64,000 nucleotides of DNA from Planobacterium oryzisoli (GTDB taxonomy: Bacteria > Bacteroidota > Bacteroidia > Flavobacteriales > Weeksellaceae). Below, piece after piece: positions 7,460-63,425 of this stretch. Below the pieces are notes generated by a model. It searched no databases, was not told where the DNA came from, and worked only from the letters and a program-made list of their open reading frames with translations. Positions within the stretch are counted from its first letter, which is position 1. Each line of letters opens with the position of its first letter. The position numbers were made by a program, and so were the translations under genes. The stretch is from the NCBI RefSeq assembly GCF_015354315.1, contig NZ_JADKYY010000001.1:1-64000 (forward strand), given 5' to 3'.

Positions 7460-7475
7460 AATTAAATGAAGATAT

Positions 7476-7498: not shown

Positions 7499-7500
7499 GT

Positions 7501-8169: not shown

Positions 8170-8227
8170 CAGTTAGCTTTTTGTTTATGCCAGCCAAATA
8201 CCGGGTTTTTTAACTTGGCTAAATTGT

Positions 8228-8235
8228 TATATTTG
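8228..8235 (+). promoter_or_regulatory. -7 box (TATATTTG) for sdaA
   Basis: Exact TAnnTTTG match 16 bases before the sdaA ATG. Confidence 0.65.
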
Positions 8236-8251
8236 CACGAGATCAGATAGT

Positions 8252-26242: not shown

Positions 26243-26815
26243 ATGGGAACTGCAGAGAAGATATATATCAAAAACATGGTGTGCAACCGGTGCATACTAG
26301 CTGTGGAACGGGAACTTGAGCTCATGGAGCTTTCCGATTTTAAGGTACTTTTAGGAGAAGTACATCTGCCCTCTGCACTTAGTAAATCGCAGCAAAGCCA
26401 CTTGCGGATGCGCCTGGAGAACCTTGGATTTGAAATCCTGGACGAGCGTAAGGCGCAACTCATAGAACAAATCAAGCAAACGGTACGCGCAATGGTATAC
26501 CGCGAGCCCGGGGCCCCAGCAGTCAATCTCTCTCAGCTCATTACCGAGAAGATACCCTACGACTATTCCTACCTTTCTTCGCTATTTTCCCATACCGAAG
26601 GTATTACAATAGAGAAGTACACTATTGGAGTGAAGATCGAGAGGGTGAAGGAACTTCTGGTGTACGGAGAGCTCTCCTTAAGCGAAATAGCCCTTACTAT
26701 GGACTATTCCAGTGTGGCCTACCTAAGCAATCAGTTCAAGAAAATTACCGGCCTTTCGCCCAGTCATTTCAAAGCCATTGGTAAGATTAAAAGAACGCCA
26801 TTGGATAAGATTTAA
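26243..26815 (+). CDS. AraC-type regulator with an N-terminal HMA-like metal-binding head
   Basis: A 190-residue protein. Residues 1-75 look like a heavy-metal-associated domain: KIYIKNMVCNRCILAVERELE with Cys14-x-x-Cys17. From about residue 95 an AraC/XylS two-helix-turn-helix DNA-binding domain follows: LSSLFSHTEGITIEKYTIG, VKELLVYGELSLSEIALTMDYSSVAYLSNQFKKITG. An HMA head fused directly to an AraC domain suggests copper or similar soft-metal sensing, and copA follows 103 bases downstream on the same strand. An AAGGAG sequence (26235-26240) precedes the ATG, unusual for this phylum but only 2 bases away. Probably the activator of copA. Confidence 0.88.
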   Translation: MGTAEKIYIKNMVCNRCILAVERELELMELSDFKVLLGEVHLPSALSKSQQSHLRMRLENLGFEILDERKAQLIEQIKQTVRAMVYREPGAPAVNLSQLITEKIPYDYSYLSSLFSHTEGITIEKYTIGVKIERVKELLVYGELSLSEIALTMDYSSVAYLSNQFKKITGLSPSHFKAIGKIKRTPLDKI

Positions 26816-29627: not shown

Positions 29628-30524
29628 CTAATACAGAAGTTTACGAAGGGCGGGTTCCAGTTTTGGATAAAGCAGGGGAATTCCCGCCTTTTCCATTTTT
29701 TGATTCGAGACCCGGCTGCCTTCCAAAAGTATGCTGCTCATTTCTCCGAGTACGCCGCGCAAGACTACTGAAGGTACGGCCAACGGGATAAATAACTTCC
29801 CATTAACTTGGGCAAGAGTCTTCATAAATTCACGATTGGTAGGAATTTCGCTTGCAACTGCGTTGAGTGCACCCTCTATCTGCGGATTTTCGAGACTGTG
29901 GAGGTATACCGAAACCAAATCTTCTATATGGATCCATGGAAAGTACTGCCTGCCGCTACCGACTGGAGAGGAGAGGTGAAAGTCTGAGAGCAATTTTAAC
30001 GGTTTGAAACTACCCCCGTCCTTACTAAGTACCGGGGCCGTTCGAATTTTTACTACTCGCTCGCTATGGGGAGAAAAACTATCGGCCGCTGCTTCCCACT
30101 TTTCACATACTAGGGAAAGAAAATCCTTGGAAACGGCAGGGTCCTGCTCGGTGAATATCTTGGTAGTGGTTACAGTACCGTAGTAGTTAGTACCTGAGGC
30201 ACTTATAAAAGCTTTTAACTTCTGTCCGGTTTTTTCAAGCTGCTCCCGCAGGAACTGGGCCGAATCTACCCTTGAGGAGAGAATTTCCTCCTTGTATTTC
30301 TCGGTCCAACGTTTTGCTATACTAGCGCCTGCTAAGTGCACTATACAGTCCACTCCGTTAAGGGCACCCGGATCTATTTGCTTTTTTTGATAGTTCCATA
30401 AGAATGTGCCGGGATCGTCCGATTTTGCACGTACCAATATCCGGACTTCATGTCCGCGCTGCTTAAGTTTTTTAACCAGTGCCGTTCCGACAAGACCGGT
30501 CCCGCCGGTTAATAGTACCACCAT
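29628..30524 (-). CDS. TIGR01777 family NAD(P)-binding epimerase-like protein
   Basis: A 298-residue SDR-superfamily protein (YfcH-like). The N-terminus VLLTGGTGLVGTALVKKLKQRGHEV is an extended-SDR Rossmann motif (GxxGxxG), followed by IVHLAGASIAKRWTEKYK and SSRVDSA, SASGTNYYG and the C-terminal DUF1731-type LLEGSRVSNQKMEKAGIPLLYP. These identify the TIGR01777 family; substrate unknown. It follows the DUF493 gene by 9 bases, likely one transcript. Confidence 0.92.
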   Translation of the reverse strand: MVVLLTGGTGLVGTALVKKLKQRGHEVRILVRAKSDDPGTFLWNYQKKQIDPGALNGVDCIVHLAGASIAKRWTEKYKEEILSSRVDSAQFLREQLEKTGQKLKAFISASGTNYYGTVTTTKIFTEQDPAVSKDFLSLVCEKWEAAADSFSPHSERVVKIRTAPVLSKDGGSFKPLKLLSDFHLSSPVGSGRQYFPWIHIEDLVSVYLHSLENPQIEGALNAVASEIPTNREFMKTLAQVNGKLFIPLAVPSVVLRGVLGEMSSILLEGSRVSNQKMEKAGIPLLYPKLEPALRKLLY

Positions 30525-30533
30525 AACTTTACT

Positions 30534-30845
30534 TTAAAGCATAATCACTCCTTCGATTTCAGAGACCTTCTTATAGAGCTCCACCACATGGTTGGCATCG
30601 AGTACAAACGCAGTGATACTGGCCGAAAGGTATTTGGCATTTTTACTCTCCCGGGTGGAGATCGTGTATTTCACCTTATCGAAAGCTTGGTAGAGCTCAA
30701 TGAGTTTGGTGTGCTCGTTAGGAAATATGAATTTATAATGGTAGTCTTCAGGAAAATTGTGGTTCTCCTCCAATTTCTCTTTCAGTGAGCGGTAAAATTC
30801 CTCGGGATCCTGCCCCGAAGTATCCGCATTTAGTAGTTTACTCAT
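30534..30845 (-). CDS. DUF493 family protein (YbeD-like)
   Basis: A 103-residue protein with the ferredoxin-like DUF493 pattern: EFYRSLKEKLEENHNFPEDYHYKFIFPNEHTKLIELY, STRESKNAKYLSASITAFVLDANHVVELYKKVSEIEGVIML. These are small regulatory-ACT-like cytoplasmic proteins of unknown role. First gene of a two-gene unit with the TIGR01777 gene; preceded by a consensus -7 box. Confidence 0.9.
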   Translation of the reverse strand: MSKLLNADTSGQDPEEFYRSLKEKLEENHNFPEDYHYKFIFPNEHTKLIELYQAFDKVKYTISTRESKNAKYLSASITAFVLDANHVVELYKKVSEIEGVIML

Positions 30846-30886
30846 AATACAATTTAAGGATCCTTATTCTAACCGGAATGGATCAC

Positions 30887-30894
30887 CAAAGTTA
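30887..30894 (-). promoter_or_regulatory. -7 box (TAACTTTG) for the DUF493 gene
   Basis: Top strand CAAAGTTA; exact TAnnTTTG on the gene strand, 41 bases before the ATG at 30845. Confidence 0.6.
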
Positions 30895-30911
30895 GAGATA
30901 ATTTTTATTCC

Positions 30912-31586
30912 CTACTGCTTTTGAATAGCATCCAGAAGTTGGATGGAGTTTTGCTGTTCGTGCTGCTCCACAAGCTTGAAGAGTCCGTTGACTAGCTGCT
31001 CACTGGCAAGTCTACTTAAAGGTGAGGTAGCACTCATTGCGGAATTCGAACCCAAAATGGATCCCAGTATCTGGTTGCCTTGCAGAGCCATATTGATGGA
31101 ACTAACGATTCCAAATTCATTGAGCTTCTGATCCACTTTAGGTTGGATTGCCAGCATGAGCTGCTCGGCGGTTTTCTCCTTAAGTAGCATCGTGGCAGCA
31201 CCTTTTCCGCCATTAGCAACCCTTTGTACATCTTCGGCAGTAAGGCTGTTTACTGCATTAACCAAAATAGGTTCGGCGATATTTACAGTATAGGCAGCCG
31301 CCTCAGCTATGTACTCCCTTTCTTTCTGCACCAGGGAGGGTGCGATTTTTTCCAGTACCGAGTTGATTTGCCTTAGCTCGCTGGGCAGTGCCTGATCGAT
31401 TAGATTGTTTTGTAAAAATGCATTCTTGTCAGCGAATATTCCTAATCCCTTAGTAATTCCCCCCAATAGAATTTGCTTTAAAATGGATAGCCCTATGCTA
31501 GAAGTAGCCAGTGCAAGGCAGGACTGTGTGGTGGTGGCTAAGGTCGCTACCCCCACAGTGGCAATCATTACGGTCTTGATTTTCAT
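30912..31586 (-). CDS. DUF4197 family lipoprotein
   Basis: A 224-residue protein with an N-terminal lipoprotein signal (MKIKTVMIATVGVATLATTT, Cys23 in TQSC). The body is alpha-helical: LGIFADKNAFLQNNLIDQALPSELRQINSVLEKI, ILVNAVNSLTAEDVQRVANGGKGAATMLLKEKT, then a Gln-rich tail. This matches DUF4197. No acidic residues follow the lipid Cys, so it is likely periplasm-facing. The start is ATG 31586 rather than a longer frame, which lacks signal-peptide character. Function unknown. Confidence 0.88.
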   Translation of the reverse strand: MKIKTVMIATVGVATLATTTQSCLALATSSIGLSILKQILLGGITKGLGIFADKNAFLQNNLIDQALPSELRQINSVLEKIAPSLVQKEREYIAEAAAYTVNIAEPILVNAVNSLTAEDVQRVANGGKGAATMLLKEKTAEQLMLAIQPKVDQKLNEFGIVSSINMALQGNQILGSILGSNSAMSATSPLSRLASEQLVNGLFKLVEQHEQQNSIQLLDAIQKQ

Positions 31587-31650
31587 TTTGTGTCTTTTTA
31601 GAGTGTTGGATAAGAGGACTTTCAAATATTACGCCAAGATGAATATTGCG

Positions 31651-31717: not shown

Positions 31718-31725
31718 TAAATTTG
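31718..31725 (+). promoter_or_regulatory. -7 box (TAAATTTG) for the glucan utilization operon
   Basis: Exact TAnnTTTG match 62 bases before the SusC-like ATG, leaving a leader of about 55 bases. No sigma/anti-sigma or hybrid two-component gene is in the window to explain control. Confidence 0.6.
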
Positions 31726-31787: not shown

Positions 31788-34607
31788 ATGAAAAACAGTA
31801 ATCTTAAGTTTCCTTGCCTGATTGCCGCTTTCTACTTTGGAGTAAGTGTACAGGCACAGACGACTCAGGACACGGTACGCGAACAGCGTATCGATGAGGT
31901 GGTTGTGATCGGTTACGGTACTGCCAAGAAAAGGGACCTAGCAGGTTCGATTGTCAAAGTGGACGGTCAGCTTGTAGCGGACAAACCCTCTTCCAATCCG
32001 GTGAATGCGCTGCAGGGTAAAGTTGCGGGGGTCTCCATTGTGAACTCCGGGCAGCCAGGCTCCCAGGCCGACGTGAGGATCCGTGGTACGGTGACGATCA
32101 ACCAGACCCAGCCGCAATACATTGTGGACGGGGTTTTTGTAGACAACATTGACTTTGTTAATCCCAACGACATTGAGTCGATGGAGATTCTTAAGGATCC
32201 TTCGTCTTTAGCTATCTTCGGAAGCCGCGGTGCGAATGGTGCCATTATCATTACGACCAAAAGAGGGCGTAGCGGACGTACTAATGTAAATCTTTACTCC
32301 TCGGTAGGAGTGAAATCATTTGACGGCCGGCCGGACGTAACCAATGGGGACCAGTACCGCATGCTCTACAACGAAGACATGGTAAACCAAGGTCTTTCAC
32401 CGTACGATGGCTTTAATATGTTCAACGCCAATACCAATTGGGTGGACCTTATCACCAATAAAGGAGCGATGGTAGCCAACCACGGGGTGTCTATTTCTAA
32501 CGGTAACGATAAAAACAGGGTAAGCTTCTCTTTTGGATACCAAACAGAAGAAGGTTCCATTAAGTACGAGGACTACTCCCGTATGACCCTCAAGTTCAAC
32601 GACGATCTTAAGATTACCGATAATATCCGTGCAGGGGTAGGGTTTACGGGTTCATTTTCAAAGCTTCCACAAACCCGTTCCTTTGGTTCAGCTCTAAATG
32701 CTACGCCAGTAGTTGAGCCGATCAATACCATGGCTGGAGATTACTACGGTATGTATAATTCGCTTCCGCAGGAATTAGGTGCGGCGCAAATCGCCAACCC
32801 TCTGGCTTTCATAGAAGGACAAAAACATACCCAGAAGGACAAGGAGATGCAGTTCAATCCAAACTTATACTTTGAATTTGACTTCCTGGAAAATTTCACT
32901 TTCCGCTCCAGTTTCTATGGTCAGTTCCGTCAGAGAAACGGAAGAGGGTACGATCCTATATTTGACCTCTATGTGCCGGAAACCAATTCCACGACTCCAT
33001 TTATAAGTAGAATCCTTACGGGGGTGCGTCAGCACGAAAACCGTACGCAGTCCTTCCAACAGGACCACTTACTTACCTATAGAAATCGTTTCGGAAAACA
33101 CGATCTGACCGCCATGGCTGGTTTCACCAGTATGTACGACGACTATTATGCACTAAGTGCTTCAGCGCGCGGAAGTCTCTCCTCACCGCTAGGTCAGATT
33201 CCGTACGATCCAAGGTTCTGGTACATCAGTTCGGATTATGTGGATTCCACAACCAAGGAGGTGAAGAGCGAGCAGAACAAAGCGACGCAAACTGCCGTCC
33301 TGGGTCGAATACTTTATAACTACGACAATAAATACATCCTTAACGGCTCTATTCGTAACGATGCGTCCTCGCGACTTTCTCCAAGCAACAGAAACCAGAT
33401 GTTCTGGTCATTAGGTGCTGCGTGGGAAGTAACAAGAGAGAGTTTCATGGACAATCAAACCGTATTCGATCTTTTAAAACTTAAGGGATCTATAGGAACA
33501 CTGGGTAATCAGTTCGTTCCTGAAAACTATCTGTACTATCCAACATACCAAGAAGGAGGTACCGGTGTGTTCAACGGGTTTTTATATCCTGCATTTATAA
33601 AAGCGTTTGAGGAAAATGAAAATCTCAAGTGGGAAGAAATTGAATCCTACGAAGTGGGCCTAGAGTCTATGATGGTGGGCCGTAAGCTGTCTTTCGATGC
33701 CACGTACTACAACAAGCAGACCAACGATCTTCTCACCTACGTACAAGGAACTACCAGTTTCTTTACCAATGCGGGTTCTATCCAATCCAATGGTTTTGAA
33801 TTCACCGCCGGATGGAAAGACAGAATCTCGGACAATTTTAATTATTATTTAAATGCCAACCTTACCACGACCAACACGGAAGTGTTAAGCGTGTTTGAAG
33901 ACGGGTACGAAGTGTTCTCCGGTCCTGCCATATTTAGAAAGGGAGCTCCTGTAGGAGCGTTCTACGGCTATGTGGTGGACGGGGTATACCAGTCCTATGC
34001 CGACATTCTCGCCTCTCCACCCACTACCATCGGTGACGTAGGCCCAGGTGATTTGAAATACCGCGATATCAACGGGGACGGCTCCATTACTCCGGACGAC
34101 CGTACCATTATTGGAGACCCAACTCCTGATTTTACCTACGGTTTCAGTGTAGGAGGAGACTACAAAGGGTTCTACATGAATGCTGATTTCTTTGGTGTGT
34201 ACGGAAACGAAGTGTTCCGGACATGGGGGAACGGGAATTCATTTGCACCGTTTAACTACCGTACCGAACGTTTGGACCGCTGGACAGGACCTGGTACTTC
34301 CAACTGGGAGCCTAGAAGCTACAGTAAATCTGCGTACAACCGTGAGAACTCCACCTATATGATTGAGGACGGTAGCTTCTTTAGAATCCGAAATGTACAG
34401 TTAGGATATAATTTTAACAGAGATTTAATCGAAGGTCTTAACATTCAGGCCCTTAAAGTGTATTTTAATGTTCAGAATCTAAAAACGTGGGATCATGTGA
34501 ACGGATTTACTCCGGAATCAGGAGGTTCGGCCCTTCAGTTCGGAGTGAACGGCAGCGGCTATCCAAACCCTAGGGTGACCAGTTTTGGTGTGAATGTAAC
34601 TTTCTAA
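31788..34607 (+). CDS. SusC/RagA family TonB-linked outer-membrane transporter
   Basis: A 939-residue outer-membrane importer. Signal peptide to about residue 24 (FYFGVSVQAQ), then a TonB-box-like RIDEVVVIGYGTAKKRD at 35-50 and the plug domain (LQGKVAGVSIVNSGQPGSQADVRIRG; YIVDGVF; SMEILKDPSSLAIFGSRGANGAI), followed by a long barrel with RSYSKSAYNRENSTYMIEDGSFFRIRNVQLGYNF and a terminal NVTF. The carboxypeptidase-like domain that precedes the plug in most SusC proteins is absent. It is the first gene of the putative glucan locus; SusD follows after 10 bases. Confidence 0.96.
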   Translation: MKNSNLKFPCLIAAFYFGVSVQAQTTQDTVREQRIDEVVVIGYGTAKKRDLAGSIVKVDGQLVADKPSSNPVNALQGKVAGVSIVNSGQPGSQADVRIRGTVTINQTQPQYIVDGVFVDNIDFVNPNDIESMEILKDPSSLAIFGSRGANGAIIITTKRGRSGRTNVNLYSSVGVKSFDGRPDVTNGDQYRMLYNEDMVNQGLSPYDGFNMFNANTNWVDLITNKGAMVANHGVSISNGNDKNRVSFSFGYQTEEGSIKYEDYSRMTLKFNDDLKITDNIRAGVGFTGSFSKLPQTRSFGSALNATPVVEPINTMAGDYYGMYNSLPQELGAAQIANPLAFIEGQKHTQKDKEMQFNPNLYFEFDFLENFTFRSSFYGQFRQRNGRGYDPIFDLYVPETNSTTPFISRILTGVRQHENRTQSFQQDHLLTYRNRFGKHDLTAMAGFTSMYDDYYALSASARGSLSSPLGQIPYDPRFWYISSDYVDSTTKEVKSEQNKATQTAVLGRILYNYDNKYILNGSIRNDASSRLSPSNRNQMFWSLGAAWEVTRESFMDNQTVFDLLKLKGSIGTLGNQFVPENYLYYPTYQEGGTGVFNGFLYPAFIKAFEENENLKWEEIESYEVGLESMMVGRKLSFDATYYNKQTNDLLTYVQGTTSFFTNAGSIQSNGFEFTAGWKDRISDNFNYYLNANLTTTNTEVLSVFEDGYEVFSGPAIFRKGAPVGAFYGYVVDGVYQSYADILASPPTTIGDVGPGDLKYRDINGDGSITPDDRTIIGDPTPDFTYGFSVGGDYKGFYMNADFFGVYGNEVFRTWGNGNSFAPFNYRTERLDRWTGPGTSNWEPRSYSKSAYNRENSTYMIEDGSFFRIRNVQLGYNFNRDLIEGLNIQALKVYFNVQNLKTWDHVNGFTPESGGSALQFGVNGSGYPNPRVTSFGVNVTF

Positions 34608-34617
34608 AAACAACATT

Positions 34618-36090
34618 ATGAATAAGAATATAATCCGAGTTTTCCTGCTTGCAGGACTATTAAGCTCTACGGCAGGAGTAGTTAGCAGCTGTAGCAGCGA
34701 TTATCTTGATCTCAAACCGGAAGGAAGACCTACCGTGGGCGAAGTTCCCATCGGAGGATTTGAAGCCCAGGCCTTCGGTTTGTACAGTACCTTACGTACG
34801 GAAGGAGGTATTGCAGATTTCACCAAAATATGGGTTAGTATCATCAGAAGCGACGATTCCAATAAAGGTAGCTCCGAATCCGATGCGGCCAACGACGGCA
34901 ACGTTTTCGATCGTTTTGCCTACGTCCCTACCAACGGACATATCACCAATACCTGGAACGGCCACTACAAACTGATATTTGACGCCAACGAACTCATCAA
35001 TGACGCGTTGGAATCGGGCGACACCTCACAAGGGACCCTGACCAACATAGCAGAAGCAAAAGCCATACGCGCCTACGCCTATTTTGAACTGCGCAGAAAC
35101 TATGGGGAAGTTCCGGTGATCTTAAAATCCATTGACAACCCACAGGACGAAATCGCTCCCAAAAATACGGTAGCAGAAGTAGATGCGCAGATCGAGAAAG
35201 ATTTCACGGAAGCCATCGAATCCCTTCCGGTACAGTGGCCTTCCGCGTATTGGGGACGGGCAACTAAAGGGATGGCGCAGGCCTACCTCGCCAAACTCTA
35301 CCTTTACCAGCGTAATTGGTCCAAAGCATTAGAACTTACCGAGGCCGTCATTGGCTCTGGAGCCTACACCTTAAATTCTTCCTACGATAAGGAATTCTCC
35401 AAGGAAGGGAACAATTCCAGGGAGTCGGTGTTCGAGGTGCAGAAAACCTACGACTATCCTACCAAATATAGCAACAATTTCTACGAATCGCAGGGGGTTC
35501 GTGGTTCCGGTGAATGGGATTTAGGATGGGGATTCAATGTGCCTTCCGAGGATTTTGTGGCTGCGTACGAGGCAGGTGACCTACGTAAGAAAACCACTAT
35601 ACTTGAGAGCGGTAAGCCGGATATCTACGGAATAAAAACCCTACCGGATTCTCCACCACTGGCGCAGAAATACTGGAACGGTAAAGCCTATACACTGCCA
35701 AGTGAACGTGAATTTTATGGCCAGAATAAAAACCATTGGGAGAACATTAAATTCATGAGATACGCGGATGTACTGCTTATGGCTGCCGAGGCCGCCAATG
35801 AGATTGGCCAGACTTCGAAAGCCGCTACGTATGTGAATCAGGTGCGTGTACGCGCAGGTCTTTCTAATACGACGGCTTCAGGTCAGCTGGCCATGCGCGA
35901 TGCGATCAAGCACGAGCGAAGAGTTGAGTTTGGAATGGAATTCGAGCGTTTTTACGACTTGGTACGTTGGGGTGATGCCATTACTGTTTTGGCTTCCAAA
36001 GGGTATACCGACCGTAACAAATACCTTCCTATCCCGCAGGAAGCCATTGACAAGAGTCAGGGAATACTAACGCAAAATCCAAATTATTAA
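34618..36090 (+). CDS. SusD/RagB family glycan-binding lipoprotein
   Basis: A 490-residue surface lipoprotein (lipobox Cys25 in VVSSCSSDYLDLKP). It has the alpha-helical TPR scaffold of SusD: AEAKAIRAYAYFELRRNYGEVPVI, RATKGMAQAYLAKLYLYQRNWSKAL, and the C-terminal MRYADVLLMAAEAANEIGQ, VNQVRVRAGL, IKHERRVEFGMEFERFYDLVRWG and YLPIPQEAIDKSQGILTQNPNY. It caps the adjacent SusC and captures oligosaccharide at the cell surface. Confidence 0.97.
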   Translation: MNKNIIRVFLLAGLLSSTAGVVSSCSSDYLDLKPEGRPTVGEVPIGGFEAQAFGLYSTLRTEGGIADFTKIWVSIIRSDDSNKGSSESDAANDGNVFDRFAYVPTNGHITNTWNGHYKLIFDANELINDALESGDTSQGTLTNIAEAKAIRAYAYFELRRNYGEVPVILKSIDNPQDEIAPKNTVAEVDAQIEKDFTEAIESLPVQWPSAYWGRATKGMAQAYLAKLYLYQRNWSKALELTEAVIGSGAYTLNSSYDKEFSKEGNNSRESVFEVQKTYDYPTKYSNNFYESQGVRGSGEWDLGWGFNVPSEDFVAAYEAGDLRKKTTILESGKPDIYGIKTLPDSPPLAQKYWNGKAYTLPSEREFYGQNKNHWENIKFMRYADVLLMAAEAANEIGQTSKAATYVNQVRVRAGLSNTTASGQLAMRDAIKHERRVEFGMEFERFYDLVRWGDAITVLASKGYTDRNKYLPIPQEAIDKSQGILTQNPNY

Positions 36091-36108
36091 CCGTTAATTT
36101 AAACAGCA

Positions 36109-36948
36109 ATGAATAAGATTGTAAGTCAATTATTATATGTGCTTTCCTTCCTTGCGGTATTTTCCTGCCAAGATTTGGAGAGACCGGAACTGGGAGACTA
36201 TCCTACGGATGCCAACCCGGTTGGAGGGCCTTTGAAGTTCTACGTAGCTTTTGATGGAGAGAGCACCAATCCGCTGATGAACGCGGTGGACAGTATACGT
36301 GCAAAATTCCCAAGCAGTAATCCACTTACTTCAGTAGAAGGAGCGAATGGACTAGCCGTTCAGGGGGAGCAGTACAAATATGTGAAATACACTAGTGCAA
36401 ACGATTTTGCAGCCACTGCAGGCAGTTTCACTGTATCGGTTTGGGCTAAGAAAGGGGAACTTAAAACCGACCATATTTTCAGTATGCCGGCTGTATCAGG
36501 TTACCACTGGTCTCAAGGTTCCATGTTTCTTCTTACTGAAGGTTCGGTGTCTTCCCCGGTTGTGAAGTTTTTCGTAAAAGATGCTACGGGTGAAAAATGG
36601 TTTGAATGGTTAGGGGCCAATGCAGTCGCTGGACTGTACGACGGTAACTGGCACCATCTTGCGTTCGTCTACGACGGTACTACCTCCAAGATGACACTTT
36701 ATAAGGACGGAGTAGCGCTAGGATTTCAGCCAGAATGGACCAACCATGGGAATGTAAAACTCGAGGAATCCAAAATTACAGGTCTTAAGATTGGCGCCGG
36801 GCCACAGGAATTCACTGCCGAGCAGATTGAAGCAGGTGCAGGGGATTGGCTGAAAAACTCCTGGACGGGAGGAATCGATCAATTCCGTATGTATTCGGTG
36901 GCGCTTTCTGCGCAAGAAGTACAGTCGCTGTACACACAAAAACGTTAA
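36109..36948 (+). CDS. LamG/concanavalin-like surface lipoprotein, likely glycan-binding
   Basis: A 279-residue lipoprotein (MNKIVSQLLYVLSFLAVFSC, Cys20, followed by QDLERPE, an acidic surface-export-type signal). Residues 40-279 form one LamG-like jelly-roll: YVKYTSANDFAATAGSFTVSVWAKKG, NWHHLAFVYDGTTSKMTLYKDGVALG, SWTGGIDQFRMYSVALSAQEVQSLY. No catalytic motif is apparent, so a surface glycan-binding role like SusE/SGBP is the best guess. It is the third gene after SusC/SusD, and a strong hairpin follows its stop. Confidence 0.88.
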   Translation: MNKIVSQLLYVLSFLAVFSCQDLERPELGDYPTDANPVGGPLKFYVAFDGESTNPLMNAVDSIRAKFPSSNPLTSVEGANGLAVQGEQYKYVKYTSANDFAATAGSFTVSVWAKKGELKTDHIFSMPAVSGYHWSQGSMFLLTEGSVSSPVVKFFVKDATGEKWFEWLGANAVAGLYDGNWHHLAFVYDGTTSKMTLYKDGVALGFQPEWTNHGNVKLEESKITGLKIGAGPQEFTAEQIEAGAGDWLKNSWTGGIDQFRMYSVALSAQEVQSLYTQKR

Positions 36949-36964
36949 TTAACTATCTAACTTC

Positions 36965-37008
36965 AGGTATGGAAGCCTATACGCATGGGCTTTCATACCT
37001 TTTTTTTT
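36965..37008 (+). terminator. Long terminator-like hairpin inside the glucan locus
   Basis: A 13-base stem (36965-36977 with 36988-37000, one G-T pair, 10-base loop) followed by eight or more T. The T-run ends exactly where the ATG (37009) of the first GH144 gene begins. It probably makes downstream enzyme genes less expressed than SusC/SusD/LamG or acts as a conditional attenuator. Confidence 0.88.
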
Positions 37009-38403
37009 ATGTTGGGATTTAAAAATTTTCTTCTAGTCAGCAGCATTCTAGCCCTTCTCTCTTGTAGCGGATCCGAGGAGTCGCCTGCAGTGAAGCCTGA
37101 ACCCGTACCTCCAACACCTCCGCCTCAGGCAGTACTTACCGAAGCGGAGCTGATGGACAAGGTCCAGCGTGATGTACTGAGGTATTTCTGGGAATACGCA
37201 CATCCAGAGTCGAAGCTAACGCGGGAACGCTACCATGTGGATAACCCTGGTTTTGATGCCTCGGTGCTTTCGGCCGGAGGATCGGGTTTTGGTATGCTTA
37301 ATATCCTGGTGGGTATAAAGAATGGGTACGTGCCGCGCAGTGAGGCGGTAGCACGGCTTACCACTGCCCTTACTTTTCTACAGAATGCAGACCGGTTCCA
37401 CGGCGCCTGGCCCCATTGGATCAATGGATCTACAGGAAAAGTTCTGCCTTTTTCTGCCAAAGACGATGGAGGAGACCTGGTGGAAACCGCCTTTATAGCA
37501 CAGGGTCTTATTGCGGTACGTGAGTATTTCAAGAACTCGGCTAATGCGCAGGAAAAAGAGCTTTCCGAAAAAGCCGATACGCTGTGGCGCGCAATCGAGT
37601 GGAACTTCTATACCCAAGGAAAAGAGGAGGGCCTGTATTGGCACTGGTCTCCCAACTACGGATTTGAAATGAATATGAAACTGCAGGGCTTTGATGAGAC
37701 GCTGGTAACCTATATACTTGCGGCCTCCTCGCCTGAGCATTCCATCTCTAAGGTAAACTACGAGCGTGGCTGGGCTCGGTCTGGAGCGGTACGCAGTGCC
37801 TCTTCCCAGTACGGAATACCGGTTCTGGCCCAACACAACGGGCAGGGCACTGGGGTAGGGCCCCTCTTTTGGTCGCACTATTCGTTTCTGTGTCTAAATC
37901 CAATGGGACTCCAAGACGCGTATCTAGACTATGGAAAAGTAACTACAAACCATGCCCAGATACAGTACCAGTACGCATTGGCCAATCCTAAAAAGTGGAA
38001 AGACTACGGCGCCAAGCACTGGGGACTGACCGCAAGCTATTCACGTGCCTCGGACGGGGGTACTACCTATAATGCCCATTCACCCCAGAACGATCTGGGA
38101 GTAATTTCTCCTACAGCAGCTCTTTCCTCCATGCCGTTCACTCCTAAGGAGAGCATGCAGCACCTGCGTATGCTCTATGAAGAGAGAGCCTCTTCGCTGG
38201 TGGGTGTGGCAGGTCCGTACGATGCCTATGCACCGCATTATAACTGGGTGGCAAACCGCTACCTTGCTATAGACCAAGGAACCATTGGGGTTATGGTAGA
38301 GAACCACAAATCCTCTTTTCTGTGGGATTTGTTTATGAATGCACCGGAGATTAAACTGGGACTCAAGAAGCTGGGTTTTACTTCGTCCCGATATACACTT
38401 TAA
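37009..38403 (+). CDS. GH144-like glucanase lipoprotein, first copy
   Basis: A 464-residue lipoprotein (Cys19 in LALLSCSGSEES; acidic residues just after the Cys favour surface display). A Pro-rich linker follows, then the (alpha/alpha)6-type glucoamylase-like domain: LRYFWEYAHPESKLTRERY, GGSGFGMLNILVGIKNGYVPR, HGAWPHWINGSTGKV, KDDGGDLVETAFIAQG, LYWHWSPNYGFEMN, PLFWSHYSFL, ISPTAALSSMPFTP, YLAIDQGTIGVMVENH. This is the PF10091/GH144 family; characterised members act on beta-1,2-glucan. The start at 37009 gives a proper lipoprotein signal; the in-frame ATG at 36985 lies inside the terminator stem. A tandem paralogue follows after 13 bases. Confidence 0.88.
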   Translation: MLGFKNFLLVSSILALLSCSGSEESPAVKPEPVPPTPPPQAVLTEAELMDKVQRDVLRYFWEYAHPESKLTRERYHVDNPGFDASVLSAGGSGFGMLNILVGIKNGYVPRSEAVARLTTALTFLQNADRFHGAWPHWINGSTGKVLPFSAKDDGGDLVETAFIAQGLIAVREYFKNSANAQEKELSEKADTLWRAIEWNFYTQGKEEGLYWHWSPNYGFEMNMKLQGFDETLVTYILAASSPEHSISKVNYERGWARSGAVRSASSQYGIPVLAQHNGQGTGVGPLFWSHYSFLCLNPMGLQDAYLDYGKVTTNHAQIQYQYALANPKKWKDYGAKHWGLTASYSRASDGGTTYNAHSPQNDLGVISPTAALSSMPFTPKESMQHLRMLYEERASSLVGVAGPYDAYAPHYNWVANRYLAIDQGTIGVMVENHKSSFLWDLFMNAPEIKLGLKKLGFTSSRYTL

Positions 38404-38416
38404 AAATAATTCGCTT

Positions 38417-39787
38417 ATGAAAAAATACATTCTCGCAGTGGGTGTACTTTCCCTAGGTATTGCCTCCTCTTGCCAAAATATGCAAAACCCTGTGGCCAAC
38501 CACCAGGGGGTGGAGCACAACAAGGAGCAGCATCTGATGGATCAGGTACAAAAGGATGCACTCAAGTATTTTTGGGATTTTGCCGAGCCCAATTCCCTTT
38601 TAGCCAGGGAACGCTACCATCAGGACGGAGTTTATCCCCAAAACGATTCGGATGTGGTAACCACTGGCGGAAGTGGTTTTGGTCTAATGTCTCTGCTGGT
38701 AGGGGTGGAGAGAGGCTTTATTCCCAGAGCCGAAGCAGTGGATAGACTAACCCATGTAGCGGATTTTCTGGCTTCTGCGGAAAGGCACCACGGTGCATGG
38801 TCGCATTGGATCGATGGAAGAAATGGTAAGACGGTTTCCTTTGGTAAAAAAGACGACGGAGGAGATCTGGTAGAAACCGCCTTCCTTGTTCAGGGACTTA
38901 TTACCGTAAGGGAATACTTTAAGAATGGAACTGCGAAAGAAAAGGCGCTTGCTGAGAAGATGGACGCGCTTTGGAGAGGGGTTGAATGGCAGTGGTATAC
39001 CAAAGGGGAAAAAGTACTCTATTGGCACTGGTCCCCTAACTACGGATGGGAAATGAATTTTCCTTTGGAAGGATACAATGAGTGCTTAATCACCTATGTA
39101 CTGGCCGCCTCGTCCCCGACCCATCCCATTGACAGTGAAACCTACTATAAAGGTTGGACCCGTAATGGAACCTACCTCTCAGAGAACAGCAAATACGGTT
39201 TAAATTTAATAGTACAGCACAACGGTGCGCAGGAATATGGAGGCCCTTTGTTTTGGGCGCATTACTCGTATCTGGGACTGGATCCTAGGGGGCTATCCGA
39301 CCGTCTGGTTAAAGATTATTTTGAACTTAACCGCAACCACGTTCTAATTAGCCACCGCTACGCATTGGAAAACCCTAAGAACTTTAAAGGATACGGTGAA
39401 AACTATTGGGGTATGACGGCCTCCTACACACGAAATCCCGACGGTTCGGTTGGATACACGGCGCATATGCCTTCCAATGACCGTGGAGTCATTACCCCGA
39501 CGGCTGCACTTAGTAGTTTTCCATACACCCCTGAGGAATCGATGAATGTGCTGCGGTATTTATACGAGGAGAAAAAAGAATTTATCGGAAGTGCAGGACC
39601 GTACGATGCTACCTCCGTGCATTACGATAACTGGACCACTCCACGCTATTTGGCTATCGACCAGGGTACTATTGCACCAATGATTGAAAACCACCGAACG
39701 GGCCTTCTTTGGAATCTCTTTATGAATGCACCGGACATTAAGCAAGGTCTTAAAAAACTAGAATTCACCTCTACTAAACACCCTTAA
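38417..39787 (+). CDS. GH144-like glucanase lipoprotein, second copy
   Basis: A 456-residue paralogue of the preceding enzyme. Lipoprotein signal MKKYILAVGVLSLGIASSC (Cys19) followed by QNMQNPVANHQ, with no acidic residues, which favours retention on the periplasmic side. The catalytic domain shares long blocks with the first copy: KYFWDFAEPNSLLARERYH, GGSGFGLMSLLVGVERGF, KDDGGDLVETAFLVQG, LYWHWSPNYGWEMNF, ITPTAALSSFPYTPEESM, YLAIDQGTIAPMIENHRT. Known GH144 members include endo- and exo-acting enzymes, so the pair may divide labour. The start is ATG 38417; the frame extends further upstream into the previous gene without homology. Confidence 0.88.
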   Translation: MKKYILAVGVLSLGIASSCQNMQNPVANHQGVEHNKEQHLMDQVQKDALKYFWDFAEPNSLLARERYHQDGVYPQNDSDVVTTGGSGFGLMSLLVGVERGFIPRAEAVDRLTHVADFLASAERHHGAWSHWIDGRNGKTVSFGKKDDGGDLVETAFLVQGLITVREYFKNGTAKEKALAEKMDALWRGVEWQWYTKGEKVLYWHWSPNYGWEMNFPLEGYNECLITYVLAASSPTHPIDSETYYKGWTRNGTYLSENSKYGLNLIVQHNGAQEYGGPLFWAHYSYLGLDPRGLSDRLVKDYFELNRNHVLISHRYALENPKNFKGYGENYWGMTASYTRNPDGSVGYTAHMPSNDRGVITPTAALSSFPYTPEESMNVLRYLYEEKKEFIGSAGPYDATSVHYDNWTTPRYLAIDQGTIAPMIENHRTGLLWNLFMNAPDIKQGLKKLEFTSTKHP

Positions 39788-39795
39788 TTACCACC

Positions 39796-40533
39796 ATGAT
39801 GCGTATAAAACAAACACTACTGCTGGGTCTGCTCTCTATTTCCTTAGGGGGAACCCTAGCAAAGGCTCAGGAAACTAAAGCGTATTTTGACCAAAAGATC
39901 ACCGAGGAAAAAAAGATCGGGTATGTACTAGATTACCCTAAGGATGTAAAGGGTAAACTTCCTCTTATTGTATTTCTCCACGGTTCTGGTGAACGGGGGG
40001 ACGATTTGGAAAAAGCCAAAGCGCACGGACCTTTTAACTACAAATCGCTACTGGGAGAACCCGTAGCACTGCTGGCCCCACAAACCCCACTTAACGAGTG
40101 GTGGGATACCCAGGCCGTATACCACCTAATTGAAGATATTGCTACGCGCTACAATATCGACAGGTCCCGGATTTATCTTACCGGTCTTTCCATGGGGGGA
40201 TGGGGAAGTTGGAAACTTGCCAATGAACATCCTGAGCTCTTTGCAGCTCTGGCCCCGGTCTGTGCTCCTTCCGATCGCTGGATGCAGGCTACCATCCACC
40301 AGTACAAAGACCTTCCTATAAAAATCTTCCATGGTGGTAACGACGATATTGTATCGCCAATGACCTCAATTGATATGTACCAAAAGATCAAACGTATCAA
40401 TCCTAATGTGGAACTAATTATCTTCCCAGACGATAATCATAATTCGTGGGACTCCACTTATTCCGATCCGGCATTTTACCGCTGGTTGCTCTCGCAGAGA
40501 AAACCTCAAATAGTAAGTAATTCAAAAAAATAG
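39796..40533 (+). CDS. Secreted alpha/beta hydrolase (esterase/peptidase S9-like) of the glucan locus
   Basis: A 245-residue exported hydrolase with signal peptide (to about residue 25, GGTLAKAQE). Oxyanion/strand motif PLIVFLHGSGERGDD, nucleophile Ser132 in YLTGLSMGGWGSWK, likely acid in HGGNDDIVSP and His in FPDDNHNSW. It resembles the prolyl-oligopeptidase/dienelactone-hydrolase group often annotated as carboxylesterase or phospholipase. In a glycan locus the natural inference is removal of acyl substituents, for instance succinyl groups on bacterial periplasmic glucans, but the substrate is not shown. Lies 8 bases after the second GH144 gene and 2 bases before bglX. Confidence 0.85.
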   Translation: MMRIKQTLLLGLLSISLGGTLAKAQETKAYFDQKITEEKKIGYVLDYPKDVKGKLPLIVFLHGSGERGDDLEKAKAHGPFNYKSLLGEPVALLAPQTPLNEWWDTQAVYHLIEDIATRYNIDRSRIYLTGLSMGGWGSWKLANEHPELFAALAPVCAPSDRWMQATIHQYKDLPIKIFHGGNDDIVSPMTSIDMYQKIKRINPNVELIIFPDDNHNSWDSTYSDPAFYRWLLSQRKPQIVSNSKK

Positions 40534-40535
40534 TT

Positions 40536-42863
40536 ATGAAAAAATTCATTGGAATTGCACTGCTCAGCCTTTCACCACTCTTTATGGCACAGCAGATTAT
40601 AAACCAACCGGTACAGACCTTCCAAACGGCTCAGTACCAATCCACTAAAAAGGCTTTTATTGATAATTTAATTGCCCAGATGACGCTTCAAGAGAAGATC
40701 GGTCAGCTTAATCTTCCTACCTCAGGAGACTTTACTACCGGACAGGCGCAGAGTTCCAATATTGGAAAGAAAATAGAGCAGGGCCTGGTAGGAGGACTTT
40801 TCAATATCAAGGGGGCAGACAAAATTCGTGCAGTACAGAAAGTTGCTGTGGAAAAATCCCGCCTAAAGATCCCTATGATCTTTGGCATGGATGTGATCCA
40901 TGGATATGAGACCACTTTTCCGATTCCCTTAGGTCTTGCAGCTACTTGGGATACGGACCTGGTCCAGCAGTCTGCGCAGATTGCCGCAAGGGAAGCTGCA
41001 GCGGACGGGATTAACTGGACCTTTTCTCCTATGGTGGACATCTCTAGGGAACCCAGGTGGGGAAGAGTCTCGGAAGGTAGCGGCGAAGACCCATTCCTAG
41101 CCAGTGAAGTGGCAAAAGCCATGGTGTATGGATACCAAGGAAAAGATCTGGCCCTTAAAAACACCATCCTTGCCTGTGTGAAACACTTTGCTCTTTACGG
41201 AGCACCGGAAGGTGGGATGGACTACAACACGGTGGATATGAGCCATACCCGTATGTTCAATGAATATTTCCCTCCGTACAAGGCCGCTGTGGATGCCGGG
41301 GTAGGCTCGGTTATGGCGTCCTTCAATGAGGTGGATGGAATACCAGCGACAGGTAACAAATGGCTGATGGACGAGGTCCTTCGCAAGAAATGGGGCTTTG
41401 ACGGCTTTATCGTAACGGATTATACCGGAATTAACGAAATGGTGGAACACGGCATGGGAGATCTGCAGCAGTCTTCTGCTCTTGCACTCAATGCGGGAAT
41501 TGATATGGATATGGTAGGGGAAGGCTTTCTCACTACATTGGAAAAATCCTTGAAGGAAGGAAAGGTGAGCGAGGCGCAAATTACCCAGGCTGCACGTAGA
41601 ATTCTGGAAGCCAAATACGATTTGGGTCTTTTCCAGGATCCGTACCGGTACGGCAATGCAGCGGAAGCCAAGAAAGAAGTGTTCAGCCAGAAGAACCGTG
41701 ACGCAGCGCGCAGCATAGCGGCGCAGAGTATGGTCTTACTGAAGAATGACAATCAGGTACTTCCATTGAAGAAACAGGGAACTGTAGCTGTTATAGGCCC
41801 ATTGGTTAATAACTCGGTGAATATGCCCGGAACCTGGAGTGTTGCAACCAAACACGGTTCGGCTGTCACGCTAGTAGATGGTTTGAAGCAGGTGGTAGGT
41901 AAAGACGTGAAAATACTTACGGCCAAAGGCTCCAACGTGGAAGATTCAGAGAAGTTGGAGAATATTTACGCTGCACACGGTAAGGTGGTAGACCGCGATA
42001 ATCGTGGTAAAGAAGTACTACTCAAGGAAGCCGTAGAAGTTGCCTCCAAAGCCGATGTCATTGTCTTGGCTATTGGTGAGAGTGCCGAAATGAGCGGAGA
42101 ATCCTCTTCAAGAGCGGAAATTACCATTCCTCAGACGCAGGTCGATTTACTCGAGGCTCTTAAGAAAACCGGTAAACCCATCGCCATGGTACTATTCACT
42201 GGTAGGCCACTTGCACTATCCAACGTACACGAAACTCCGGATGCTATACTAAATGCGTGGTTTCCTGGAACCGAGGCAGGACTGGCAATAGCCGATGTGC
42301 TTTTTGGAAAAGTGAATCCTTCGGGTAAACTCCCGATGACATTCCCTAGAAGCCTGGGACAAGTTCCTATCTACTACAACCATAAGAATACGGGAAGGCC
42401 ATTGAATCCGCAGAAAGTAGAGAAATGTGAATACGAACGATTCCGTGCCAACTACATGGACGAGTGTAATACTCCGCTTTATCCTTTTGGTTATGGATTA
42501 AGCTACACCTCGTTTACCTATTCGGAGCCGCGCGTCTCCAAAGAGCGTCCTAAAGGAAACGACAAACTCCAGGTAAGCGTGGATGTCTCTAACACAGGAT
42601 CGTACGATGGTGCCGAAGTGGTACAGCTATATGTTAGGGACCTGGTAGGTTCCAATACCCGTCCTGTGAAAGAACTGAAAGGGTTTGAGAAGGTGCTGCT
42701 TAAGAAGGGAGAAACCAAAACCGTTACTTTTACCCTGACCCCGGAAGATCTGAAGTTTTACGACCACAAGCTTAATTACGAGTGGGAAGAAGGTGAATTT
42801 GATATCATGGTAGGAACTAATTCCGCTGAGGTAAAATCCAAACGCATCTACTGGTCCAAATAA
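40536..42863 (+). CDS. bglX: GH3 beta-glucosidase
   Basis: A 775-residue exported family 3 glycoside hydrolase (signal peptide to about residue 18, LSPLFMAQ). TIM-barrel domain: MTLQEKIGQLNL, GMDVIHGYETTFPIPLGLAATWD, SPMVDISREPRWGRVSEGSGEDP, and the nucleophile Asp295 in GFIVTDYTGI. The second domain has the likely acid/base Glu in IGESAEMSGESSSRAEI, then WFPGTEAGLAIADVLFG. A C-terminal fibronectin III-like domain (GYGLSYTSFTYSEP; VSNTGSYDGAEVVQLYV) completes it. It would hydrolyse glucooligosaccharides such as sophorose in the periplasm. Last gene of the locus; a terminator follows. Confidence 0.95.
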   Translation: MKKFIGIALLSLSPLFMAQQIINQPVQTFQTAQYQSTKKAFIDNLIAQMTLQEKIGQLNLPTSGDFTTGQAQSSNIGKKIEQGLVGGLFNIKGADKIRAVQKVAVEKSRLKIPMIFGMDVIHGYETTFPIPLGLAATWDTDLVQQSAQIAAREAAADGINWTFSPMVDISREPRWGRVSEGSGEDPFLASEVAKAMVYGYQGKDLALKNTILACVKHFALYGAPEGGMDYNTVDMSHTRMFNEYFPPYKAAVDAGVGSVMASFNEVDGIPATGNKWLMDEVLRKKWGFDGFIVTDYTGINEMVEHGMGDLQQSSALALNAGIDMDMVGEGFLTTLEKSLKEGKVSEAQITQAARRILEAKYDLGLFQDPYRYGNAAEAKKEVFSQKNRDAARSIAAQSMVLLKNDNQVLPLKKQGTVAVIGPLVNNSVNMPGTWSVATKHGSAVTLVDGLKQVVGKDVKILTAKGSNVEDSEKLENIYAAHGKVVDRDNRGKEVLLKEAVEVASKADVIVLAIGESAEMSGESSSRAEITIPQTQVDLLEALKKTGKPIAMVLFTGRPLALSNVHETPDAILNAWFPGTEAGLAIADVLFGKVNPSGKLPMTFPRSLGQVPIYYNHKNTGRPLNPQKVEKCEYERFRANYMDECNTPLYPFGYGLSYTSFTYSEPRVSKERPKGNDKLQVSVDVSNTGSYDGAEVVQLYVRDLVGSNTRPVKELKGFEKVLLKKGETKTVTFTLTPEDLKFYDHKLNYEWEEGEFDIMVGTNSAEVKSKRIYWSK

Positions 42864-42884: not shown

Positions 42885-42924
42885 CTGCTCCTGTACGTTA
42901 CGTATTCAGGGGCAGTTTTTCTTT
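42885..42924 (+). terminator. Intrinsic terminator of the glucan locus
   Basis: Stem CTGCTCCTG (42885-42893) with CAGGGGCAG (42907-42915), one G-T pair, with an inner TACG/CGTA pairing, then TTTTTCTTTT. Confidence 0.85.
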
Positions 42925-43022: not shown

Positions 43023-44450
43023 ATGAATTCGTACAAAAATCCTTTGGAGGAGCGTTATTCCAGTGAGGAGATGCTTTTTAACTTTTCCCACAACAATAAG
43101 TTCCGCACCTGGCGAAAGCTATGGATTGCTTTGGCAGAGATCCAGAAGGATTTAGGTCTGGATATTACCGAGGCACAGATAAATGAGCTTAAAGCGGCTC
43201 AGGACTTGATTGATTACGATCTGGCTGCCAAGTACGAAAAGAAGTTTCGGCACGATGTAATGGCCCATGTCCACACCTACGGTGATGCTGCCCCAGGAGC
43301 TAAGGGCATTATTCATCTGGGCGCTACATCGGCTTTCGTTGGAGACAACACAGACTTAATTCAGATTCGCGACGGTCTTCTCATACTACGTAAGAAACTG
43401 GTCAACGTGATGGAAAGTCTTAAGGACTTTGCGCTGGAGTATAAGGATCTCCCTACACTGGGATTCACCCATTTTCAACCGGCCCAATTAACCACCGTAG
43501 GAAAGAGAGCCACCTTATGGCTTCAGTCACTTGTTTTGGATTTGGAAGAGATGGAGTTTTTCCTCGATACCTTGCGTTTTCGCGGTGTAAAAGGTACTAC
43601 CGGTACGGCAGCAAGTTTTTTGGAACTCTTCGAGTCGGATTATTCCAAGGTACAGCATCTGGACCGAGAACTTTCCAGAAGGTTTGGATTTGAAAAAGTG
43701 TTTGGCGTTTCGGGTCAGACCTACGACCGTAAAGTAGATGCCAAAGTGGTGGCACTGCTCTCCAATATTGCGCAATCGGCCCATAAGTTTACCAATGATT
43801 TACGTCTGCTCCAGAATCTAAAAGAAATAGAGGAGCCGTTTGAAAAGGACCAAATAGGTTCTTCCGCAATGGCTTATAAAAGAAATCCGATGCGCTCGGA
43901 GCGTATCGGAGCGCTTTCCAAGTATGTTATGTCCCTCTCATCGAGCTCTGCAATGGTGGCTTCCACGCAATGGTTCGAACGCACCCTGGACGACAGTGCA
44001 AACAAACGACTCACCATCCCACAGGCATTTCTGGCCGTGGATGCGATTCTTCTTATCTGGCACAACATCCTGAACGGAATTGTGGTATATCCCAACCGTA
44101 TCAAGAAACATATCATGGAAGAGCTTCCTTTTATGGCTACCGAATACATCATCATGGAAGAGGTCAAGGCTGGAGGTGACCGACAAGAGATCCATGAAAT
44201 TATCCGTCAGCACTCTATGGAAGCAAGCAAGAAGGTTAAGATGGACGGAGAGGAAAACGACCTCTTGGAGCGGATTCTTGCAGATACTACGCTGCGCCTG
44301 GACAAGACCAAGTTGATGCAGGTACTGGACCCTAAGAATTTTATTGGCTTCGCACCCGTCCAGACGCAGGAATTTATTGATAACGAAATAGCGCCTCTGC
44401 TGAAAAAGTACGCTCAGGATCTGGGCATGCAGACCGAACTTAAAGTGTAA
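43023..44450 (+). CDS. purB: Adenylosuccinate lyase
   Basis: A 475-residue member of the fumarase/aspartase superfamily that cleaves SAICAR and adenylosuccinate in purine synthesis. Motifs: HDVMAHVHTYGDAAPGAKGIIHLGATSAFVGDN, GFTHFQPAQLTTVGKRA (with the catalytic-type His), KGTTGTAASF, and the superfamily signature GSSAMAYKRNPMRSERI. The length is that of the longer, human-like PurB form. A terminator-like hairpin separates it from purL. Confidence 0.97.
   Translation: MNSYKNPLEERYSSEEMLFNFSHNNKFRTWRKLWIALAEIQKDLGLDITEAQINELKAAQDLIDYDLAAKYEKKFRHDVMAHVHTYGDAAPGAKGIIHLGATSAFVGDNTDLIQIRDGLLILRKKLVNVMESLKDFALEYKDLPTLGFTHFQPAQLTTVGKRATLWLQSLVLDLEEMEFFLDTLRFRGVKGTTGTAASFLELFESDYSKVQHLDRELSRRFGFEKVFGVSGQTYDRKVDAKVVALLSNIAQSAHKFTNDLRLLQNLKEIEEPFEKDQIGSSAMAYKRNPMRSERIGALSKYVMSLSSSSAMVASTQWFERTLDDSANKRLTIPQAFLAVDAILLIWHNILNGIVVYPNRIKKHIMEELPFMATEYIIMEEVKAGGDRQEIHEIIRQHSMEASKKVKMDGEENDLLERILADTTLRLDKTKLMQVLDPKNFIGFAPVQTQEFIDNEIAPLLKKYAQDLGMQTELKV

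Positions 44451-61169: not shown

Positions 61170-63425
<2,256 letters not shown>

Follow-up and report, generated by a model that had tools for sequence, protein, structure and literature searches.

The first 64,000 nucleotides of contig NZ_JADKYY010000001.1 of Planobacterium oryzisoli (RefSeq assembly GCF_015354315.1; this whole stretch is called the window below) carry a seven-gene operon at 31788-42863. It is best explained as a polysaccharide utilisation operon for beta-1,2-glucan, a reading to which we give a probability of about 0.85. Its comparison with related loci revealed that in 41 loci of the Weeksellaceae the enzymes persist while the importer genes, encoding SusC and SusD with or without a surface glycan-binding protein (SGBP), were repeatedly replaced in place. 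GH144 operons of this kind have already been described; the exchange of importers in front of the same enzymes looks new. The operon has the following features:

31788..34607, + strand: SusC/RagA TonB-dependent transporter, of an importer type that we label A (open reading frame (ORF), Pfam, NCBIfam, SusC clustering)
34618..36090, + strand: SusD-like surface lipoprotein, mature start CSSDYLD... (ORF, Pfam, lipoprotein signal)
36109..36948, + strand: LamG-domain lipoprotein, mature start CQDLERPE... as read from the ORF; probable SGBP, by position and domain
36965..37008, + strand: 16-bp hairpin (36965-37000) and T run at the importer-to-enzyme junction, attenuator- or terminator-like (stem scan, fold energy)
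37009..38403, + strand: GH144a, endo-beta-1,2-glucanase-like lipoprotein, mature start CSGSEES..., probably at the cell surface; longest ORF from 36985 (Pfam, PDB matches, residues)
38417..39787, + strand: GH144b, endo-beta-1,2-glucanase-like lipoprotein, mature start CQNMQNP..., probably facing the periplasm (Pfam, PDB matches, residues)
39796..40533, + strand: alpha/beta-hydrolase with a signal peptide (by eye) and a probable S132-D183-H215 triad; possible esterase, with glucan substituents as presumed substrate
40536..42863, + strand: GH3 beta-glucosidase of 775 residues, probable CsBGL orthologue; nucleophile D295 and acid/base E522 by correspondence with CsBGL
42885..42923, + strand: terminator-like stem and T run 3' of GH3 (by eye; absent from the stem scan, whose limit its loop exceeds)

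The initial annotation had described seven same-strand genes separated by small gaps, encoding SusC, SusD, a LamG lipoprotein, two GH144-like enzymes, an alpha/beta-hydrolase and a GH3 enzyme. All seven ORFs are intact at these places and the families were borne out by Pfam and NCBIfam. Pfam identified the SusC plug (PF07715), PF07980 and PF14322 in SusD, Laminin_G_3 in the LamG protein, PF10091 in both GH144 proteins (221 and 259 bits, for a cut-off of 27), several alpha/beta-hydrolase families on the hydrolase, and the N, C and Fn3-like domains of GH3. NCBIfam added TIGR04056 (SusC/RagA, 713 bits) and a BglX-type GH3 (949 bits). The operon thus has the adjacent SusC and SusD genes, on one strand with carbohydrate-active enzymes, that characterise a polysaccharide utilisation locus of Bacteroidota. 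GH144b starts around 38417 and not at the longest-ORF start, 38339, because the latter overlaps GH144a. The start of GH144a is probably 37009 rather than 36985, since 36985 falls inside the hairpin.

The GH144 proteins, which are 56% identical to each other, both have as best solved relatives the structures 5gzk and 5gzh of CpSGL, the founding GH144 endo-beta-1,2-glucanase from Chitinophaga pinensis. The matches reach 463 bits for GH144a and 541 bits for GH144b and are nearly full length (E 9e-138/1e-137 and 4e-161, respectively). Three entries named 'putative glucoamylase' come next, then the exo-type BDI_3064 (304 and 371 bits) and XCC2207 (137 and 132.5 bits). Among the 8 (GH144a) and 7 (GH144b) PDB chains matched at E <=0.001, we recognised none of those that we take to be GH162 or GH189. 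Six residues of CpSGL (D135, D139, E142, E211, F268 and Y330), whose roles rest on mutational or clan-defining evidence (PMC12102758), are conserved in both window enzymes. They correspond to D160, D164, E167, E238, F295 and Y362 in GH144a (numbered from 36985) and to D146, D150, E153, E222, F279 and Y347 in GH144b (numbered from 38417), and are invariant in the 122 rows of an alignment that includes the CpSGL reference and counts the window pair twice. BDI_3064 has an extra N-terminal region, of a kind that has been tied to exo action (PMC8861115). The match in 5z06 starts at residue 282-284, and what precedes has no counterpart in the window enzymes. Like CpSGL, the window proteins are of PF10091 type and have the functional residues; they differ from it in being two diverged copies with different lipoprotein signals. 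Of the alternatives raised by the initial annotation (GH144, GH162/GH189, or PF10091 members of another specificity), GH144 is supported for both, with predicted beta-1,2-glucanase activity, CpSGL heading the solved relatives of both and its functional residues being kept.

The GH3 protein points in the same direction. It strongly matches 5xxl and 5xxn, the latter being BtBGL of Bacteroides thetaiotaomicron, presumably BT_3567. All ten named residues of CsBGL, from Chryseobacterium scophthalmum, match at a constant shift of 18, while the next best shift matches three. This shift equals the stated length of the CsBGL signal peptide, and both proteins have 775 residues (PMC8546341). The window protein therefore has the active-site residues and the length of the CsBGL group and is a probable CsBGL orthologue, judging from these two traits. 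One of the ten residues, H463, is not general, being H in 27 of 40 Weeksellaceae rows and F in 12. The window genome has three other GH3-like genes, 49, 45 and 28% identical to that of the operon. Hence, the initial proposal of beta-1,2-glucan as the likely target is supported by the closeness of both GH144 proteins to CpSGL, the six conserved residues and the ten matches to CsBGL.

To study the conservation of the operon, we used a set of 101 loci: the window, 20 stretches from relatives, and 80 further loci (the best 80 of at least 516 confirmed). The window and L038-L077 form the Weeksellaceae set of 41 loci, whose named genera we take to belong to this family. PF10091 was found in 212 of 296 sampled genomes of the family, spread over 11 of 33 genera. 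A hydrolase matching that of the window lies within 2.5 kb downstream of a GH144 gene, on the same strand, in all 41 Weeksellaceae loci, and a GH3 gene lies within 5.5 kb downstream of GH144 in 38. Given these counts, the gene order of the operon is not due to chance, and the synteny on which the initial annotation had wanted a check is confirmed in the family. In the 58 loci from outside the Weeksellaceae (a count that leaves out L110 and L119, which have no protein labelled GH144b), the hydrolase is found downstream in 38 and GH3 in 54. S132, D183 and H215 are identical in the 41 Weeksellaceae hydrolases, as expected of a serine hydrolase triad (the assignment is our own), and the protein may be an esterase for glucan substituents. 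In L048 and L053 the hydrolase is 3' of GH3 and only 31-32% identical to that of the window.

The lipoprotein signals of the two GH144 proteins are different. For surface export, lipoproteins have a short run of acidic residues following the cysteine that bears the lipid (PMC5080379). Locating the lipobox with a simple in-house rule, we found an acidic residue at positions +2 to +6 in SusD of 41/41 Weeksellaceae loci, in 13/15 GH144a and in 0/41 GH144b. In the window, the signal is present in SusD (CSSDYLD) and GH144a (CSGSEES) and missing from GH144b (CQNMQNP); the LamG protein starts with CQDLERP. This suggests that GH144a is surface-exposed and GH144b periplasmic. Such a division of labour between outside and inside is not new, since it was already proposed for Ignavibacterium album, where a cluster has two GH144 genes with GH3, GH35 and GH94 members, one being placed outside and others acting after TonB-dependent import (PMC8861115). 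That cluster differs by its ABC transporter and other enzymes, and the available part of the report describes no SusCD operon of the window's form (PMC8861115).

From these elements we infer the substrate and its form, the compartments of the enzymes, the role of the putative esterase and, below, the function of the hairpin. SusC, SusD and the LamG lipoprotein would capture and import beta-1,2-glucan, with GH144a shortening at the cell surface the chains too long for import. In the periplasm, GH144b would cut linear or cyclic chains into sophoro-oligosaccharides, the alpha/beta-hydrolase may strip ester substituents, and GH3 would release glucose. A glucokinase gene at 6401-7459 of the window, about 24 kb from the operon, could use this glucose. 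A genome search showed that GH144a and GH144b are the only PF10091 proteins of this 2.1 Mb genome, and found no MdoG/OpgG in it. These absences fit a possible source in the glucans of neighbouring Proteobacteria, as the initial annotation had supposed. Because beta-1,2-glucans are made by bacteria, such loci would let one bacterium feed on the osmolytes or infection-related glucans of another.

Several observations weigh against this reading of the operon. The solved relatives of its SusC and SusD are distant (best 363 and 162 bits), and we know of none that is a beta-1,2-glucan importer. GH3 has its best solved relative in JMB19063, a compost-metagenome protein that scores 1133 bits where 5xxl reaches 994. 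CsBGL, its probable orthologue, cleaves beta-1,3 about as well as beta-1,2 linkages, so that GH3 alone does not fix the linkage. Three of the 41 Weeksellaceae loci lack a downstream GH3 (L043, L046 and L062), L046 and L062 having a GH3 upstream of SusC, at the edge of the stretch. The hydrolase is not essential to the system, since 20 of the 58 loci from other families have no such gene close downstream. Finally, two of the 15 GH144a lack acidic residues within +6, and the surface signal itself was defined in other genera.

Some of this could also mean that the target of the operon is another or a mixed glucan with beta-1,2 links as just one component, such as a beta-1,3/beta-1,2-glucan or a decorated exopolysaccharide. 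Relative to rebaudioside D, the activity of CsBGL is 81% on sophorose, 80.5% on laminaribiose and around 0.1% or lower on cellobiose and gentiobiose (PMC8546341), that is, it accepts the beta-1,3 disaccharide as well as sophorose. Besides, the GH35 encoded beside a GH144 gene in Bacteroides xylanisolvens is a beta-1,2-galactosidase inactive on beta-1,2-gluco-oligosaccharides, hence GH144 loci need not all serve plain beta-1,2-glucan (PMC11739564). Certain loci, from Flavobacterium and elsewhere, have additional GH43 or GH97 genes, a hint that the glucan is more complex in those cases. The window operon, on the other hand, encodes none of these additions, its glycoside hydrolases being two GH144 and one GH3, and we regard a mixed target as quite improbable for it. 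The six extra ORFs that we scanned in L079, L084, L107 and L112 comprise three GH43-like proteins, one GH97, one LamG protein and one LuxR-type regulator. The GH43-like proteins with F5/8-type domains, or the GH97, are encoded at 15559-17481 in L079, 12173-14002 in L107, 11574-13307 in L112 and 14365-16461 in L084. Marine GH144 loci are said to carry a sulfatase (PMC6499787); none was among these six ORFs, which are no census.

Among related loci, the proteins predicted to import the glucan vary far more than the enzymes. Between the window and a relative of the same genus (L038), identity is 72% for the DUF4197 protein, 81% for GH3 and 86% for purB, with GH144b and GH3 in the range 73-81%, and falls to 30-31% for SusC, 35% for SusD and 25% for the LamG protein. 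The similarity of the DNA ends at 31920, inside SusC, and returns at 37177, inside GH144a. A second pair, L091 and L095, is 97% identical in GH3 and 95% in GH144b, with SusC at 37% and flanks that are 84% and 89% identical over 4.7 kb each. For 193 Weeksellaceae pairs, GH3 identity is 85% or more; SusC identity is below 40% in 82 of them and at or above 60% in 111, with none in between. The rank correlations of pairwise identities are 0.88 for GH144a-GH144b, 0.72 for SusC-SusD and 0.65 for GH144b-GH3; that of SusC-GH3 is weak (0.28), although reached by 0/500 permutations, and that of GH144a-SusC is 0.10 (correlations with GH144a use 15 rows). SusC and SusD therefore move together while the enzymes mostly stay.

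We then defined importer types by single linkage of 100 SusC proteins, with an identity threshold of 50% (groups merge or split at 45 and 55), and placed them on a tree of GH144b and GH3 with 62 rows, out of 65 chosen among the 101 loci (L043, L110 and L119 were dropped, one gene being missing). The type changes 22 times along this tree, where a minimum of six changes would suffice. Shuffled labels need 35.2 changes on average and 0/200 shuffles were as low as 22, hence importer types are also partly inherited. The window's type A requires eight changes for nine rows, at least seven of them on well-supported branches. The enzyme tree rejects a single origin of type A: constraining the six Weeksellaceae type-A rows to one clade, as a group named from the SusC clustering and not from the enzyme tree, costs 466 log-likelihood units (p-AU 2e-41).

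Could the importer types instead be old paralogues sorted by differential loss, without replacement by recombination? Their sequences differ by some 60-70%, the same types come back in different families, and two maps from outside the Weeksellaceae show extra pieces (a second SusD upstream in L131, two SusC pieces in L111), as such a history might leave. Yet in the 11 close pairs compared (eight of them with GH3 at 92-97%), collinear flanks enclose importers that are unrelated. The breaks fall within SusC, and at or within either SusD or the first GH144 gene, and no SusC identity of 40-60% occurs among the 193 close pairs. Nor was a second SusC-SusD pair seen adjoining the operon in the Weeksellaceae maps. 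This makes sorting of paralogues improbable.

The importer type goes along with the enzyme content. In the Weeksellaceae, GH144a is present in 5/6 loci of type A, 0/22 of type B, 4/7 of type C, 2/2 of type D and 4/4 of type E, and among seven independent pairs of the tree six differ in this way, one shows no difference and none is opposed (p 0.031). No gene fits between SusD and GH144b in 21 of the 22 type-B loci; the exception, L041, encodes at this place (7392-8972) a protease of the papain family that bears an Ig-like domain and, at its C-terminus, a sorting domain of Por type. The window-type SusC itself, at 49-77% identity outside the window's genome, was found in 24 of the 296 genomes of the family, including that of the window, which belong to 6 of the 33 genera (E cut-off of 1e-250, with no more than two candidates per genome being scored). 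PF10091 is present in every one of the 24, and in the 13 with listed GH144 coordinates, window included, this SusC is always within about 5 kb of GH144.

These data also bear on the possible cause of the exchange. SusC-type proteins can serve as phage or toxin receptors, and importer differences might be driven by escape from phages or bacteriocins rather than by the forms of the substrate. The replaced segment would agree with this, as it covers the surface-exposed SusC, SusD and SGBP and spares GH144b, the hydrolase and GH3. However, the link with enzyme content speaks against receptor escape (GH144a is absent from 22/22 type-B loci and present in 15/19 others), and GH144a, though probably surface-exposed, follows the enzymes (0.88 with GH144b, 0.10 with SusC, 15 rows). 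We consider receptor escape rather unlikely as the main driver.

Exchange linked to the substrate would have a parallel in the fructan locus of B. thetaiotaomicron, where phylogenetically distinct SusC/SusD pairs decide the type of fructan, a surface endo-enzyme is needed for the longer polymer, and short inulin probably enters without one (PMC5967196). The comparison there is between strains of one species and concerns fructans, whereas here it is across genera and concerns a GH144 locus. If the analogy holds, short or cyclic beta-1,2-glucan would enter intact where GH144a is missing. We propose, as a tentative model that we hold at somewhat less than even odds, that the beta-1,2-glucan locus of Weeksellaceae and Flavobacterium combines a constant set of enzymes with an interchangeable importer. 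Between conserved flanks, SusC-SusD(-SGBP) would have been swapped repeatedly as one block, immediately 5' of an RNA hairpin by which importer and enzymes would be expressed at different levels. Type-B lineages, without surface GH144a and binding lipoprotein, would import the glucan intact, so that the importer type would tell the physical form eaten, either long linear or short/cyclic periplasmic glucan. If so, it could be read from a genome alone whose glucan a species can eat. The same enzymes at the same place behind different importers also make a natural experiment, which would separate the contribution of the importer from that of the enzymes, a matter mostly addressed in single loci.

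The hairpin of this model lies at 36965-37000 in the window; its 16-bp stem closes a loop of 4 bases, and a T run comes next. Its fold energy is -25.3 kcal/mol, for a mean of -10.8 in shuffled sequences (z -5.6, 0/200). Stems of seven or more pairs with a T run were found at the importer-to-GH144 junction of 26/41 Weeksellaceae and 23/57 other loci, where dinucleotide shuffles of these junctions gave 0.4/41 and 0.6/57. The other junctions rarely have one (SusC-SusD 0/98, SusD-SGBP 3/49, GH144-next gene 1/90, GH144-GH144 0/33, hydrolase-GH3 1/57). In windows of 50 bases, 85/98 importer-to-GH144 junctions reach -15 kcal/mol or less, against 80/329 other junctions, and the former fold lower than the SusC-SusD junction of the same locus in 94/98. 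Plain fold energy is less specific than hairpin plus T run, since 24/49 SusD-SGBP junctions also reach -15 kcal/mol. The sequences of the stems differ widely between groups of loci. Seven loci (L046, L048, L051, L053, L054, L055 and L060) have a strong hairpin, of about 14-17 bp by our own count of the printed folds, in an unusual place, the codons of the first GH144's signal peptide.

We infer that the hairpin lowers enzyme expression relative to that of the importer. It could also be a plain terminator, with the enzymes expressed from their own promoter and no attenuation within one transcript. A stem followed by a T run is indeed what a terminator looks like. But the 60 bases between the LamG gene and the likely GH144a start are mostly hairpin and T run, with no obvious room for a promoter, and the strong hairpin of some relatives sits inside the signal-peptide codons of the first enzyme, which leads us to judge a plain terminator unlikely. 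Intra-operonic RNAs able to end at terminators were reported as a class in B. thetaiotaomicron (PMC7366714).

The hairpin was rejected as a mark of the GH144 system alone. As a control, we analysed 33 of the 34 SusD loci fetched from the window genome and its relatives (L143 was too short); five of these are GH144 loci. Past SusD, a hairpin with T run is present in 7 of the 26 non-GH144 loci that have another gene within 250 bases, and in one of the two that do not. In the window genome, two of the five other SusD loci have one (L036 and L037); the remaining cases past the SusD stop are L142, L153, L154, L156, L157 and L166. With 7/26 unrelated loci carrying it, the hairpin looks like a wider habit not confined to GH144 loci, and stems in mid-operon, past the importer genes, probably occur more generally in operons of this kind. 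It offers a simple, testable handle on the importer-to-enzyme ratio, and the importers of other operons seem to be followed by one too.

The idea of a beta-1,2-glucan locus is not new, since such loci are in print: GH144 loci are among the abundant ones in Bacteroidetes (PMC6499787), and Elizabethkingia has a conserved GH144+GH3 locus proposed to act on bacterial beta-1,2-glucans (PMC6786605). They share with the window a SusCD-type locus, GH144 (and GH3) and a wide distribution in the phylum. The parts available make no mention of paired GH144s in separate compartments, of the replacement of importers, of the alpha/beta-hydrolase or of a junction hairpin (PMC6786605, PMC6499787). Among the matches listed for titles and abstract openings of the open-licence literature, we found no description of importer exchange in GH144 loci, nor of a junction hairpin or attenuation in such operons. 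In our view, two points merit further work: the way importers are exchanged while the enzymes stay, and the junction hairpin, which may be a general feature.

The operon is flanked by genes that we take, from their sequence, to be DUF4197-like (30912-31625, - strand) and purB (43023-44450), as we do for DUF493. Acquisition of the whole operon from outside is not suggested: the G+C content of its genes is 0.45-0.51, for 0.467 in the window, and DUF4197/DUF493 lie within 3 kb upstream of SusC in 30/41 Weeksellaceae loci (at least in L074, the stretch ends too early to show them). Judged by their sequence, the ORFs at 29628-31625 and the downstream purB/purL are not regulator-like; an AraC-type gene lies at 26243-26815. 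Upstream of SusC, TAAATTTG at 31718-31725 fits what we take to be the -7 promoter motif of Bacteroidota, and no matching upstream element was seen at the usual spacing. Many Flavobacterium loci encode a protein of 921-925 residues upstream of SusC (e.g., L079 2396-5173), with no counterpart next to the window operon; it may be the regulator of these operons, as the one scanned (L079) has a LuxR-type GerE domain. Further away, 61170-63386 of the window encodes an ordinary monomeric isocitrate dehydrogenase.

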